Shown piece after piece: positions 17,139-26,929 of a stretch of DNA of 64,000 nt; within the stretch, counting starts at the first letter, position 1, and each line of letters begins with the position of its first letter. Where the stretch lies: assembly GCF_001528665.1 (NCBI RefSeq), contig NZ_BBYJ01000008.1:62001-126000 (forward strand), written 5' to 3'. The DNA is from Microtetraspora malaysiensis (GTDB lineage Bacteria; Actinomycetota; Actinomycetes; Streptosporangiales; Streptosporangiaceae). Under the pieces are notes generated by a model that was not told the origin of the DNA, did not search any database, and worked only from the letters and a program-made list of their open reading frames with translations. The position numbers and the translations under genes are program-made.

Positions 17139-18446
17139 TCACGGGTTGGACGTGTCCGCTTGGGCTTCAGGGACGAACTGCCGACGATGCGGTGCCGAGC
17201 CGGTGGATTCGTCGCTCTGCTGATAGTCGGTGAAGTCGCGCAGGCGCCGGATCGGTGAGGCCAGCAGGACCAACGGTATGCAGATGGCCGCGGTGACAAA
17301 GATCATCAGGGTGACCCGGCCGCTGAGCACCCCGGCGATCGCTCCGGCGATCAACCCGCCGATCGGGATCGCGCCCCAGGAGACGAAGCGGACCGTGGCC
17401 ATCACCCGAGGCAGCAGGTCGGGCGGGCTGGCGATCTGCCGATACGTGCGGGTCACCACGCTGAGCACCACGACGCCGGCGGAAAATACCACGTTGCCGA
17501 CGGCGAAGGCCGCGAGGCCCTGCCAGCCGGTGCCGAGGGGAACGACGAGCGCCCCGGCGACCATGACGAAGCCGGAGACGATCAGGGCGCGGGCGGTGCC
17601 GAGCCTGGCCGTGACCTGGTTCGTCAAGGCCGCGCCGATCAGCGCGCCGACGCCGTCCGCCGCCAGAAGCAGGCCGACGAGGCCGGGCTCGGTGTGCAGC
17701 TCGCGTACGAGGTACAGCGCGTAGAGCGCTTGCTGTGCCCCGCAGACCGTGTTGGCCGCGGTGGCGGCCCACATGCACGGACCCATGACCGGGTGGTGCA
17801 CGACGAAACGCCAGCCTTCACGGATCATCGCGCGCACCGGTGGCCAGCGGTCGGGGGCCTCCGCGCGGCGTTCGGGCAGGGTCCGCAGCAGCAGGGCTGA
17901 GACAAGGTAGCTGGCCGCGTCGACGAGGAGGGTGGGCACCGCCCCGAGCGCCTGGATGAGGAGACCGCCAACCGACGGCCCACCGAGCTGAGTAGTGGCG
18001 TGAGTGCCGGACGCCAGGCTGTTACGGGACTGCAACTGCTCCTTGCTCACGATCGACGGCAGGAAGGTCGAGTTGGCGACGTCGAAGACGACGTTCGCGA
18101 AGCTGATCACGAGGGCCACGATCACCAGCTGGGCGACCGTCAGCCGGTCCAGCCACCAGGCCAGCGGGATGGAGATGACCGCCGCCGCGCGGGCCAGGTC
18201 GGCGGCGACCTGAACCCTTCGCATGGGGAGTCGCTGCACCACCACCCCGGCGGGCAGGCCTATCACGATCCAGGCGACGTAACCAGCGGCGGCGATCATG
18301 CCCAACTCGAACGCGGAGGCGTCGAGCACCGTCAAGGCCGTCAGCGGCAGCGCCACCGCGCCTACCGCCGAGCCGACCGCGCTGGTCGTGCCGGCCGTCC
18401 ACCACCGCCAGAAGACGCCCGCTCCACCTCCACTGTCGATTCCCAT
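17139..18446 (-). CDS. MFS exporter (MFS_3 / EntS-like)
   Basis: A 435-residue, 12-TM major facilitator with the pattern of the EntS/MFS_3 exporter group: VALPLTALTVLDAS, VVFDVANSTFLPSIV, and RNSLASGTHATTQLGGPSVGGLL in the helix 4-5 region. Such proteins pump out drugs or small metabolites by proton antiport. ATG 18446 has AGGAGGGG upstream. The gene is divergent from the HxlR-peroxiredoxin fusion across only ~50 bp containing a perfect palindrome, so that protein very likely controls it. Both genes lie between the 34-bp repeats, suggesting they arrived or moved together. Confidence 0.85.
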   Translation of the reverse strand: MGIDSGGGAGVFWRWWTAGTTSAVGSAVGAVALPLTALTVLDASAFELGMIAAAGYVAWIVIGLPAGVVVQRLPMRRVQVAADLARAAAVISIPLAWWLDRLTVAQLVIVALVISFANVVFDVANSTFLPSIVSKEQLQSRNSLASGTHATTQLGGPSVGGLLIQALGAVPTLLVDAASYLVSALLLRTLPERRAEAPDRWPPVRAMIREGWRFVVHHPVMGPCMWAATAANTVCGAQQALYALYLVRELHTEPGLVGLLLAADGVGALIGAALTNQVTARLGTARALIVSGFVMVAGALVVPLGTGWQGLAAFAVGNVVFSAGVVVLSVVTRTYRQIASPPDLLPRVMATVRFVSWGAIPIGGLIAGAIAGVLSGRVTLMIFVTAAICIPLVLLASPIRRLRDFTDYQQSDESTGSAPHRRQFVPEAQADTSNP

Positions 18447-18467
18447 CCCAGCACCCCTCCTGAGTAA

Positions 18468-18482
18468 GTTCCATAATGGAAC
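18468..18482. promoter_or_regulatory. Palindromic operator for HxlR-type regulator
   Basis: GTTCCATAATGGAAC is a perfect inverted repeat (7-bp arms, central A). It lies just upstream of the -10 of the fusion gene and over the expected promoter of the divergent exporter gene, a layout for joint repression. Confidence 0.65.
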
Positions 18483-18486
18483 GCAC

Positions 18487-18492
18487 TATACT
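18487..18492 (+). promoter_or_regulatory. -10 element TATACT (leaderless promoter)
   Basis: TATACT ends seven bases before GTG 18500, so the fusion regulator is probably translated from a leaderless transcript. The operator sits immediately upstream. Confidence 0.55.
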
Positions 18493-18499
18493 GGGGTAC

Positions 18500-19375
18500 G
18501 TGAAGCGCGCCGATCTGCCCGACTCCGACTGCGGTATCGCACAAGCGCTCGGAGTGATCGGCGACTGGTGGACGTTCCTGGTAGTGCGGGACATCGCGGG
18601 CGGCACCACCCGCTTCGACAGCCTTCAGCGTGAGCTCGGCGTCAGCCGTCGAGCGCTGGCCGAACGCCTGGCCGGGCTCGTCGAACACGGGGTGCTCGAG
18701 AGGCGGCCCTATTCCGATCGCCCGCCGCGCTACGACTATGTGCTGACCACGAAGGGTGAAGGCCTGCTGCCGGCGCTCATCGCCCTGCAGGATTGGGGCG
18801 CCAGACACGTGATGGGCGATGGGGCGCTGACCGCGACCAGCGAGGACGGGTCCGCCGAGAGCCGTCGCGTGCACAAGCTGGTCAACCGGAAAATGCCGGA
18901 TGTCGTGCTGGAGCGACATGACGGCGAGCTGGTCGCGCCCAACGCACCGGGCGGCGTCTGGACTGTGCTCTACTTCTTCCCCGGCGCCTTTGCCCCGAGC
19001 ACCCAGGGCTACCCGCCCGGTTGGGCCGACGTCCCAGGGACGAAGGGTTGCACGTTGGAGGCTCTTACCTACGCGTCACGGTGTGCCGACTTCGAGGCGG
19101 CAGGTGCCACGATCCGAGGCGTGAGCACCCAGCGACCCGACCAGTTGGCCGCCTTCGTCACGCACGCGAGGTTGCCCTATCCCCTCCTGTCCGACCAGGA
19201 CAGCAGACTCGCCGCCGGGCTGCTGCTGCCGACCTTCCGGGCGGCCGGCGTCGACCGCTTCAAGCGCCTCACCCTGTTGGTCGACGCCGACGCGATCATC
19301 CGCGCGGTGCAGTTTCCGATCAGCGATCCGGCCGGTTCAGTGGATGAGATGCTTGCCCTCGTCCGCAGTCAATGA
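18500..19375 (+). CDS. HxlR-family regulator fused to peroxiredoxin (AhpC/TSA) domain
   Basis: A 291-residue fusion. Residues 1-110 are a winged-helix HxlR domain with the conserved N-terminal Cys11 (SDCGIAQALGVIGDWWTFLVVRD) and the YVLTTKGEGLLPAL wing. Residues ~135-288 match the AhpC/TSA type with GWADVPGTKGCTLEA, where Cys184 is the peroxidatic position and Cys195 a possible resolving cysteine. PYPLLSD, LLPTF and FKRLTLLVDAD follow. HxlR proteins often sense oxidants or electrophiles through the N-terminal Cys, so the peroxiredoxin may be a built-in sensor; that is inference. GTG 18500 is preferred over ATG 18476, which overlaps the operator. Confidence 0.85.
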   Translation: MKRADLPDSDCGIAQALGVIGDWWTFLVVRDIAGGTTRFDSLQRELGVSRRALAERLAGLVEHGVLERRPYSDRPPRYDYVLTTKGEGLLPALIALQDWGARHVMGDGALTATSEDGSAESRRVHKLVNRKMPDVVLERHDGELVAPNAPGGVWTVLYFFPGAFAPSTQGYPPGWADVPGTKGCTLEALTYASRCADFEAAGATIRGVSTQRPDQLAAFVTHARLPYPLLSDQDSRLAAGLLLPTFRAAGVDRFKRLTLLVDADAIIRAVQFPISDPAGSVDEMLALVRSQ

Positions 19376-24951: not shown

Positions 24952-26313
24952 TCAGGAGGCGGCGAACCGGACCAGCCCGGCGGTGAGAGCGGCGGCCGCC
25001 GCGCAGGCCACGATCATGAGATCGGTGCCGGCGGCGAGCCCCTGACCGGCGGTGACCGCCGCGGTCAGCGCCGCGCCCACCGAGGAGCCCACGTACCGCG
25101 CGGTGTTGTTGGCCCCGGACCCCATGCTGGCCCGATGCCGCGGCACGCTCTCGATCGCGAGGTGGGTGAGGGACGCGTTGACCAGCCCGCTGCCGATCCC
25201 CGCGACCAGCAGCCCGGCGAGCGCCCGCGGCGCCGACCAATGGGCCATCGTGCCGAGCAGGGCGAGGCTGCCGGCGGCGGAGAGCAGCAGACCGAGCGCG
25301 AGCCGGCCGCGGGCGGCGAGCCGCAGTCGGGGAGCCAGGAGCGCGGCGACGAAGGACGTCCCGGACCAGAACGCGAAGACGGCGGCGGTGGCGAGCTGCG
25401 TCATGCCGAGGGCCGACTGGAGCACGGTCGGCAGATAGCTCATCAGCCCGACGATCGCGATGCCGGTGACCAGCGCGCCGCCGGTGGCGACGAGGAACGA
25501 CGGGCGCCGGAACAGACCCATGTCGATCAGCGGCGCGGGACGGCGGACCTCCACCAGGGCGAAAAGGGTCAGGAGAACGGCCGCCGCGGCCAGGGCCGTG
25601 AGCACGACCGGCCGGGACCAGCCGAGCCGTGCCTCGGTCACGCCGGTCACCAGGGCGGCGAGCCCGAGGGTGAGCGTGACGGCGCCGGGCACGTCGAGCC
25701 GCCGCCCCGCCTGCTGCTCCGGCCGCGGCTCCGTCCGCGCGGGCAGCGTACGCGCCGCCAGCACGGCCAGCACGACGGAGCAGGCGGCCGTCAGCCAGTA
25801 CACGCCGCGCCAGCTCGACAGCGCGGCGAGCCCGCCCGACACCAGGGGGCCGATCGCGATGCCCAGGCCGAGCATCGCGCCGTACCGTCCCGTGGCCCGC
25901 ACCCGCTCGGGGCCCGGGGGAACGACCTCGCCGACCACGCCCAGGCTGGCGGCGAGCAGCGCCGCGCTGGACACCCCCTGGGCGAAGCGGCCGAGCACGA
26001 ACGTCGGCACACCTCCCGCGAGGGCCACGATCGCGCTCGATACCGCGAGTGACGCCATGCCGATGACGTAGACGCGCCGGCGGCCGTGATCGTCGGCGAG
26101 CCCTCCGGCGAGGAGGAGCGACACCGCGAGCCCCAGGGTGACGGCGTTCAGCATCCAGACCGGGCCGGTGGGGCCGGCGTCGAGCGCGCGGGCGGCCTCC
26201 GGCAGCGTGACCATCGGCGCGGTGTAGTTGATCAGTGCGAGCAGCGGCGCCGCGCACGCGACCGCGAGGGTCGCCGGCCGGGCCCGTAAGGGAGCCGGGG
26301 TCTCGACCAGCAC
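24952..26313 (-). CDS. MFS drug transporter
   Basis: A 453-residue major facilitator. Motif A is GGLADDHGRRRVYVIGM and motif C-like sequence is GIAIGPLVSGGLAALSSWRGVYW. The GTG start at 26313 lies a few bases after GGAGG on the minus strand. The protein is probably an exporter of the DHA1/DHA2 type. It is divergent from an HxlR regulator, and each gene has its own copy of the operator GTTC(R)GTNATTGAAC-like sequence, pointing to joint control. This is the third efflux pump with a divergent regulator within 9 kb. Confidence 0.86.
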   Translation of the reverse strand: MLVETPAPLRARPATLAVACAAPLLALINYTAPMVTLPEAARALDAGPTGPVWMLNAVTLGLAVSLLLAGGLADDHGRRRVYVIGMASLAVSSAIVALAGGVPTFVLGRFAQGVSSAALLAASLGVVGEVVPPGPERVRATGRYGAMLGLGIAIGPLVSGGLAALSSWRGVYWLTAACSVVLAVLAARTLPARTEPRPEQQAGRRLDVPGAVTLTLGLAALVTGVTEARLGWSRPVVLTALAAAAVLLTLFALVEVRRPAPLIDMGLFRRPSFLVATGGALVTGIAIVGLMSYLPTVLQSALGMTQLATAAVFAFWSGTSFVAALLAPRLRLAARGRLALGLLLSAAGSLALLGTMAHWSAPRALAGLLVAGIGSGLVNASLTHLAIESVPRHRASMGSGANNTARYVGSSVGAALTAAVTAGQGLAAGTDLMIVACAAAAALTAGLVRFAAS

Positions 26314-26366: not shown

Positions 26367-26381
26367 GTTCAGTGAATGAAC
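26367..26381. promoter_or_regulatory. HxlR operator copy 2 and adjacent -10
   Basis: GTTCAGTGAATGAAC has GTTCA/TGAAC arms. It abuts TAGGAT (26382-26387), the probable -10 of the regulator gene, so binding would block it. Confidence 0.5.
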
Positions 26382-26410
26382 TAGGATGGCGCGAAAGGAG
26401 GATGGCGCTG

Positions 26411-26929
26411 ATGGGGCTCGGCAAGAACTACGAGGGGCAGGACTGCTCCCTCGCCCGGTCACTGGAACTGCTCGGCGAGCGGTGGACGCTGCTCATCGTG
26501 CGCGACGCGCTGTACGGCGTGCGCCGATACGGCGACTTCCTCGCCCACCTCGACATCCCGAGGGCGGTCCTCTCCCAGCGACTGTCCGCGCTGGTGGACG
26601 CGGGGGTCATGGAGCGGCGCCGCTATCAGGAGTCCCCGCCGCGCGAGGAGTACGTCCTGACCGGAAAGGGGAAGGAGCTCTGGCCGCCGGTGCTCGCCCT
26701 CGCCCAGTGGGGCGAGCGGCACATGAGCGCCGCGGGGCCGCGCCGCGTCTTCCGCCACGTCGCCTGCGACGCGCCGATCGGCGCGGGCGCCACGTGCTCG
26801 GTGTGCGGGGCGCACGTGCCCGCCGAGGAGGTCGAGATATGGCCCGGTCCCGGCGCCGACCTCACCCGCGAGGACCCGGTGAGCGTCGCGCTGCGCGGGC
26901 CGCACCGGATGCTGGAACCGCTGCCCTGA
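26411..26929 (+). CDS. HxlR-family transcriptional regulator with C-terminal Cys pair
   Basis: A 172-residue winged-helix regulator. The HxlR domain spans residues ~8-105 (QDCSLARSLELLGERWTLLIVRDALYGVRRYGDF) and has the conserved N-terminal cysteine. The C-terminal extension carries CDAPIGAGATCSVCGAHVPAEEV, a small Cys-rich (possibly zinc) element. The start is ATG 26411, seven bases after AAAGGAGG; ATG 26402 overlaps that site. It is divergent from the MFS pump. Thiol-based sensing is plausible but not shown. Confidence 0.85.
   Translation: MGLGKNYEGQDCSLARSLELLGERWTLLIVRDALYGVRRYGDFLAHLDIPRAVLSQRLSALVDAGVMERRRYQESPPREEYVLTGKGKELWPPVLALAQWGERHMSAAGPRRVFRHVACDAPIGAGATCSVCGAHVPAEEVEIWPGPGADLTREDPVSVALRGPHRMLEPLP

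Follow-up and report, generated by a model that had tools for sequence, protein, structure and literature searches.

A Recurrent HxlR–Peroxiredoxin Fusion with a Predicted Operator and a Divergent Exporter Gene: A Candidate Oxidation Switch in Actinobacteria

The window analyzed here, a stretch of 64,000 nucleotides from Microtetraspora malaysiensis (contig NZ_BBYJ01000008.1, positions 62,001 to 126,000), encodes a protein in which an HxlR winged-helix DNA-binding domain and a peroxiredoxin domain are joined in one chain, an architecture shared by some other soil actinobacteria. Judging from sequence comparison, the association of this domain pair with two cysteines (Cys11 and Cys184), a palindromic site, and a divergent exporter gene is more than chance, as all of these recur across genera. 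With confidence slightly better than even, we read the locus as a single-gene oxidation switch, in which the fusion would repress both itself and the exporter and would be released by thiol oxidation.

Gene Structure and Domain Architecture

The fusion gene most likely occupies positions 18500 to 19375 of the forward strand, beginning with a GTG codon and encoding 291 amino acids. The original prediction had given its span as 18468–19375; the fused open reading frame is indeed present there, while the palindrome begins at 18468 and the gene itself probably at 18500. A longer version of the same reading frame is possible from an ATG at 18476, but this codon lies within the palindrome and ahead of a −10-like box, which makes GTG 18500 the likelier start. 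The −10-like box is located 7 nt 5′ of this GTG, conservation among relatives also backs the start, and the earlier numbering of Cys11 and Cys184 itself implies it.

The HxlR winged-helix domain spans residues 19–104 (18554..18811, forward strand) and matches PF01638 with an E-value of 1e-20. The score of 73.8 bits, compared to a curated cut-off of 20.8, places it in the HxlR/DUF24 family, and its nearest solved chain by sequence is 4gcv from Pseudomonas (6.3e-27). A linker of residues 105–127 (18812..18880, forward strand) follows and is conserved in part, with R123 and L127 present in all 66 fusions compared and G106 and G108 in 65 of them. The C-terminal AhpC/TSA domain, which is PrxQ-like, comprises residues 128–269 (18881..19306, forward strand; PF00578, E-value 1.6e-16). 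As both Pfam matches exceed their cut-offs within one 291-residue frame, the predicted joining of an HxlR domain to an AhpC/TSA domain holds. The second domain combines the AhpC/TSA fold with a peroxidatic-type cysteine, as in PrxQ, and its closest structures by sequence are of the PrxQ/BCP type (e.g., 5enu and 5epf). An AlphaFold2 model, built from an alignment of 45 rows (the window protein plus 44 loci taken from the 56 of the contig scan described below), has a mean pLDDT of 78.9 and a pTM of 0.63, and the top Foldseek matches of the model were likewise PrxQ/BCP structures (target TM approximately 0.8). The pLDDT falls below 50 at residues 1–19 and 98–111, so a distance between Cys11 and Cys184 cannot be claimed from the model.

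Distribution and Ancestry of the Fusion

A scan of genome contigs with the window protein identified 56 loci, comprising 51 complete or nearly complete fusions, three incomplete or broken fusions, and two loci matching only the HxlR part. Fusion loci were found in Nonomuraea, Microbispora, Planotetraspora, Microtetraspora, Sphaerisporangium, and Spongiactinospora, as well as in Micromonospora, Actinoplanes, Dactylosporangium, and Streptomyces. Within the family of the source organism, the fusion occurs in 31 of 341 genomes and 9 of 68 genera (E ≤ 1e-45), including one genome (G139) with a shortened match only from residue 63 onward, and, at the same threshold, an even sample of the phylum yielded it in 3 of 396 genomes, the source genome included. 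The fusion is thus widespread but patchy. This is the search for the domain pair that the original prediction had proposed, and it shows that the pairing is not confined to one genome; a chance joining or assembly artifact is ruled out by the same recurrence.

The 66 fusions used for counting consist of the scan loci and 15 more divergent loci (42–62% identity) retrieved from the fusions of the 341-genome family scan, with duplicates removed (L002, L003, and L076, of L154, L155, and L151, respectively). The two loci with only an HxlR part (L082 and L084) and the three incomplete or broken fusions (L063, L081, and L086) were left out of these counts, and L023, a duplicate of L098, was removed before the peroxiredoxin tree and the counts at the positions three residues before and five residues after the peroxidatic cysteine (Cp−3 and Cp+5). 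L063 itself, from Microbispora catharanthi, is a shortened fusion whose match begins only at residue 65, with some 11 bp between it and the start of the exporter gene; it has the appearance of having lost the operator, together with most of the DNA-binding domain, by deletion.

In a tree of the peroxiredoxin domain (32 of the 66 fusions, chosen by hand, and 34 stand-alone relatives), all fused rows lie on one side of a branch with support of 99/90, and the same was observed for the HxlR domain (28 of the 66, also chosen by hand, and 26 unfused proteins; support 99/98). The position of the fused rows in both trees fits a single fusion event. The peroxiredoxin tree places two Micromonosporaceae loci, L045 and L047, inside a group of rows from the window's family (clade support 97/93), which hints at transfer between families; in the HxlR tree, the position of L045 is not settled and L047 is outside the row set. 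Among the open-access literature matches listed, the titles and the abstract openings shown contained no description of the fusion. The HxlR and PrxQ families are already known; their pairing without a resolving cysteine, together with an operator and an exporter, likewise did not appear among the matches listed.

A Predicted Operator Ahead of the Fusion Gene

A perfect 15-bp palindrome, GTTCCATAATGGAAC, is located at 18468–18482, between the fusion and the divergent exporter gene as had been proposed, and no other site in the window matches it with ≤2 mismatches (shuffle mean 0.06). It forms part of a predicted 25-bp operator, AGTAAGTTCCATAATGGAACGCACT, at 18463..18487, which carries all 16 consensus letters of the pattern AGTnnGTTCCnnnnnGGAACnnACT. 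A box resembling TATAGT or TATACT usually follows this pattern. Of the 66 loci, 57 retain 13 or more of the 16 fixed letters, whereas no score above 12 was reached in 50 shuffles of each locus. The remaining 9 loci do not exceed the shuffles and belong mostly to a divergent clade, where the neighboring genes differ as well. The conservation of the site in these 57 loci and its recurrence across genera strengthen the suggestion that the palindrome is the operator of the regulator. Two adjacent palindrome-like sites in tandem were observed upstream of the fusion in L145, L146, and L149.

In the source genome, the site at the fusion is the only perfect operator, and the next one has two mismatches. 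A second perfect copy of the 15-mer (C44:35388) was set aside because it is inside long open reading frames. At ≤3 mismatches, the genome contains eight operator-like sites compared to ten for a reversed control, and a wide regulon is not supported, since the weaker sites occur at the level of the control. Across the 341 family genomes, a 28-bp pattern of operator plus box (≤1 mismatch) was found in 17, one site each, and the reversed control gave none. In 16 of the 17, the fusion is present with the site just upstream of its gene, and the site of the 17th precedes, by approximately 50 bp, an HxlR gene whose product is 55% identical over residues 1–107; 15 of the 31 fusion genomes do not match the pattern at this threshold. 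Similar sites (at least 13 of 16 letters) also precede 5 of 26 unfused HxlR genes, which suggests an HxlR operator with nothing peculiar to the fusion. Viral contigs were also scanned for the operator, with matches at 5 loci.

A −10-like box, TATACT, adjoins the operator at 18487..18492 on the forward strand and is conserved in relatives. A scan for the sigma-70 consensus gave no promoter in the region of the operator and this box. The placement of the operator directly ahead of the box suggests repression.

The Divergent Exporter and Other Neighbors

The probable target of the regulator is an exporter-type gene of the major facilitator superfamily (MFS) at 17139..18446 on the reverse strand (MFS_3, 5.1e-27; MFS_1). 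The exporter named in the original prediction recurs beyond this locus: an MFS ortholog is divergent from the fusion and within 275 bp of it in 45 of 54 loci, and this arrangement also favors the exporter as the likely target. Five of the nine exceptions are Micromonospora loci with no such MFS gene beside the fusion (L052, L059, L068, L071, and L075); the others are L049, with a partial MFS gene, and the incomplete or broken fusions L063, L081, and L086. Identity values of the MFS protein and of the fusion are correlated across 45 loci (rho 0.83, kinship ignored). In a search of 100 relatives with the MFS protein at E ≤ 1e-60, matches elsewhere than beside the window's fusion were at most 45% identical, and the fusion-bearing relatives G072 and G081 gave no match. 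Four other genes of the window were found in only 1 of the 56 loci (L031).

Among 28 Micromonospora-type loci chosen by hand, the operator scores a mean of 13.7/16 in the 6 loci without an intact MFS gene (one of which has a partial MFS) and 15.2/16 in the 22 with it (p 0.03, kinship ignored). These observations bear on the possibility that the protein is mainly an enzyme, i.e., an autoregulating peroxidase with only an incidental link to the exporter. The five Micromonospora loci that have the fusion and the site without the MFS gene would be expected under such a scheme, but the divergent exporter of the 45 loci, the weaker site where the MFS gene is gone, and the absence of a resolving cysteine in 62 of the 66 fusions make it very improbable.

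Local control of an exporter from one site is typical of drug-sensing repressors. The peroxiredoxin fold could accordingly be a pocket for the exported compound, whose non-covalent binding releases the repressor. Such a ligand-binding regulator would suit the single-site control of the exporter and the drug export- and modification-like neighbors in the divergent-clade loci L142, L145, and L149 (matches below the NCBIfam cut-off), but it leaves the near-invariance of the candidate peroxidatic cysteine and of the putative catalytic arginine unaccounted for, and we consider it improbable.

The neighbors of the divergent clade include an ABC-2 permease in L145 (best NCBIfam match DrrB), a DrrA-like ATPase in L149, and aromatic-hydroxylase-like FAD monooxygenases in L145 (best match RdmE) and L142 (best match MbnF, then RdmE), all of these NCBIfam matches being below the cut-off. 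In L142, the monooxygenase gene lies upstream of the fusion on the same strand, and a predicted site separates the two; in L145, the corresponding distance exceeds 2 kb. Other neighbors are a methyltransferase (L152), another MFS protein (L153), an Exo_endo_phos protein (L141), and an enolase (L148). From these few loci, a possible common thread of the clade is that aromatic compounds are exported and modified. The enolase gene beside the fusion, identified by Pfam in L148 and by eye in L144, is possibly a second copy and could encode an insensitive target enzyme.

The window also contains a second divergent pair, formed by an unfused HxlR gene (26372–26929, forward strand) and another MFS gene (24952–26313, reverse strand). 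This HxlR protein (PF01638, 2.1e-21) has a C-terminal stretch containing cysteine, and the pair, approximately 7 kb from the fusion, is a natural unfused comparator.

Cysteines and the Peroxiredoxin Active Site

The two cysteines singled out in the original prediction are both conserved, being invariant across the 54 aligned fusions of the scan. Cys11, the N-terminal cysteine of the HxlR part (codon 18530..18532, forward strand), is present in all 66 fusions, and Cys184, the candidate peroxidatic cysteine (Cp; codon 19049..19051, forward strand), is retained in 65 of the 66 and in all 34 stand-alone relatives. In the one exception, L150, a short gap falls at the position of Cys184, so that this cysteine is lost and the remainder is kept. 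These two are the sole cysteines in 45 of the 66 fusions, and the window protein has a third, Cys195.

Conservation of Cys11 as a sign of redox sensing was ruled out by unfused HxlR proteins as a control: among 26 matches at 27 loci, all 25 that could be aligned have the N-terminal cysteine. As it is equally kept in ordinary HxlR proteins, Cys11 is no special sign. The unfused relatives L004–L030 (approximately 140–183 amino acids) have three to five cysteines in 19 of 26 frames, compared to two in most fusions. Position 13 is isoleucine in 65 fusions and valine in one, which disfavors formaldehyde sensing of the Bacillus subtilis HxlR type in all 66.

Codon 189 (19064..19066, forward strand) corresponds by sequence comparison to the resolving-cysteine position of PrxQ, five residues after the peroxidatic cysteine (Cp+5). 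The window protein has Leu189 here and thus lacks the resolving cysteine of 2-Cys PrxQ proteins. Cysteine was found at this position in 4 of the 66 fusions compared to 31 of the 34 stand-alone relatives, counts that are drawn from related sequences and are not independent events. The cysteine is kept in L077, L078, and L080 from Streptomyces and in L153; this retention indicates that its loss was not tied to the fusion event and was later or independent, and the loss possibly happened more than once.

Arg256 (codon 19265..19267, forward strand), which we take to be the catalytic arginine of peroxiredoxins, is present in all 66 fusions and all 34 stand-alone relatives. Together with Glu187, Pro179, Ser209, and Gln211, each likewise found in 66 of 66, it is kept down to 42% identity. 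At Cp−3, the fusions have alanine in 53 cases and threonine in 12, including the window protein, and the 34 stand-alone relatives all have alanine. The canonical PrxQ motif, worded P-(X)3-(T/S)-[P/F]-X-Cp in PMC5811025, is accordingly missing from most fusions, with threonine at Cp−3 in 12 of 66 and proline four residues earlier in 2 of 66 (Asp177 in the window protein). Given the usual alanine at Cp−3, peroxidase activity cannot be assumed and a fast reaction with peroxide is not assured. Moreover, replacement of the Cp+5 cysteine nearly abolished thioredoxin-driven activity in Corynebacterium glutamicum PrxQ (PMC5811025), and the absence of this cysteine in 62 of the 66 fusions therefore makes a normal turnover peroxidase unlikely. 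The better guess is that the fused domain is a sensor.

The same residues may be read as those of an ordinary electrophile-sensing HxlR regulator, in which Cys11 would be the only residue to react with electrophiles such as quinones, and the peroxiredoxin part would be a dead spacer or dimerization module. The invariance of Cys11, its survival in L150 where Cys184 is lost, and the mostly absent canonical threonine would all agree with this, as would sensing by HxlR homologs through their N-terminal cysteine, reported in PMC6943732. From a dead spacer, however, one would not expect Cys184 in 65 of 66 fusions and five further residues kept without exception, and we hold this explanation to be unlikely.

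Proposed Mechanism and Significance

In the oxidation switch that we favor, an HxlR dimer bound to the operator would block the exporter as well as its own promoter, and thiol oxidation would make the dimer let go of the operator. Less surely, Cys184 of the peroxiredoxin domain would be oxidized first, either by peroxide or by an exporter substrate with oxidizing or redox-cycling properties. Having no resolving cysteine of its own, the domain would pass the oxidation on, and oxidized Cys184 could have as its partner either Cys11, in the same chain or the other one, or a low-molecular thiol, for instance mycothiol. A relay from Cys184 to Cys11 may thus operate within the regulator. In YodB, the N-terminal cysteine pairs with a C-terminal cysteine of the partner chain, and, as the latter is near where the peroxiredoxin domain begins here, a Cys11–Cys184′ bond is thinkable by analogy. 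Oxidant sensing by the N-terminal cysteine of MarR/DUF24 regulators is also described in PMC6943732 and PMC7835342.

The original prediction of a one-protein regulator is borne out insofar as the HxlR and peroxiredoxin domains share one chain across genera. Its further suggestion, that the peroxiredoxin module oxidizes or tunes the regulator, is plausible, and more so given the absence of the resolving cysteine in 62 of 66 fusions and the invariance of Cys11. Simple peroxide sensing, on the other hand, is argued against by alanine at Cp−3 in 53 of 66 fusions, by the generality of Cys11 among HxlR proteins, and by the one fusion without Cys184.

Alternatively, the fusion may be a one-cysteine mycothiol sensor, in which a sulfenic acid on Cys184 forms a mixed disulfide with mycothiol that alters DNA binding, and Cys11 is structural only. 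This is a rather doubtful but reasonable alternative, since it would explain the missing resolving cysteine and the generality of Cys11, and it has a parallel in OhsR of C. glutamicum, which is oxidized to a sulfenic acid and then S-mycothiolated (PMC6306002). It is countered by L150, which lacks Cys184, and by C. glutamicum PrxQ, whose electrons come from thioredoxin and not from the mycothiol system (PMC5811025).

A stronger version of the favored switch, which we put forward tentatively and with much less confidence than the switch itself, is a one-chain bacterial thiol-peroxidase relay wired to export. Cys11 would be the resolving partner of the PrxQ domain, and each oxidation would result in lost DNA binding. 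As the divergent clade has DrrAB-like export and aromatic-hydroxylase-like FAD monooxygenase genes nearby, such a relay may read redox-active (quinone) antibiotics by their peroxide, and the fusion could point to the sensing of redox-active drugs by antibiotic-producing actinomycetes. Proof of relays from peroxiredoxins to transcription factors is difficult to obtain in eukaryotes, where specificity and proximity have to be demonstrated for partners that are distinct proteins. The fusion, a natural one that combines two near-invariant cysteines with a single operator and a single neighboring target, would provide a minimal system to test such a relay.

Comparison with Known Systems

The HxlR/DUF24 redox regulators (HypR, YodB, CatR, QsrR, and HxlR) share with the fusion the PF01638 winged helix, the N-terminal cysteine at the same place, and a palindromic site as operator, predicted in the case of the fusion. 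These regulators are single-domain proteins. Solved HxlR chains have 107–168 amino acids, and the fusion adds a peroxiredoxin domain of approximately 165 residues. B. subtilis HxlR uses Cys11 and Lys13 in its response to formaldehyde (PMC7835342), whereas the fusions have isoleucine or valine in place of this lysine. OhsR of C. glutamicum is likewise an actinobacterial thiol regulator acting via a sulfenic acid, but it is of the MarR type, is an activator, and undergoes S-mycothiolation, and the abstract describing it mentions no peroxiredoxin domain (PMC6306002).

The PrxQ/BCP proteins, including C. glutamicum PrxQ, Mycobacterium tuberculosis BcpB (5epf), and the Burkholderia ambifaria protein (5enu), have the same fold and a candidate peroxidatic cysteine. 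The fusion differs from them by an insertion before this cysteine, by the usual alanine at Cp−3, by the resolving cysteine absent in 62 of 66, and by being fused to a DNA-binding domain. In the eukaryotic pairs Orp1–Yap1 and Prx2–STAT3, a thiol peroxidase oxidizes a transcription factor, and the two are separate proteins. The logic proposed for the fusion is the same, except that both parts reside here in one bacterial chain, within which the transfer is a proposal.
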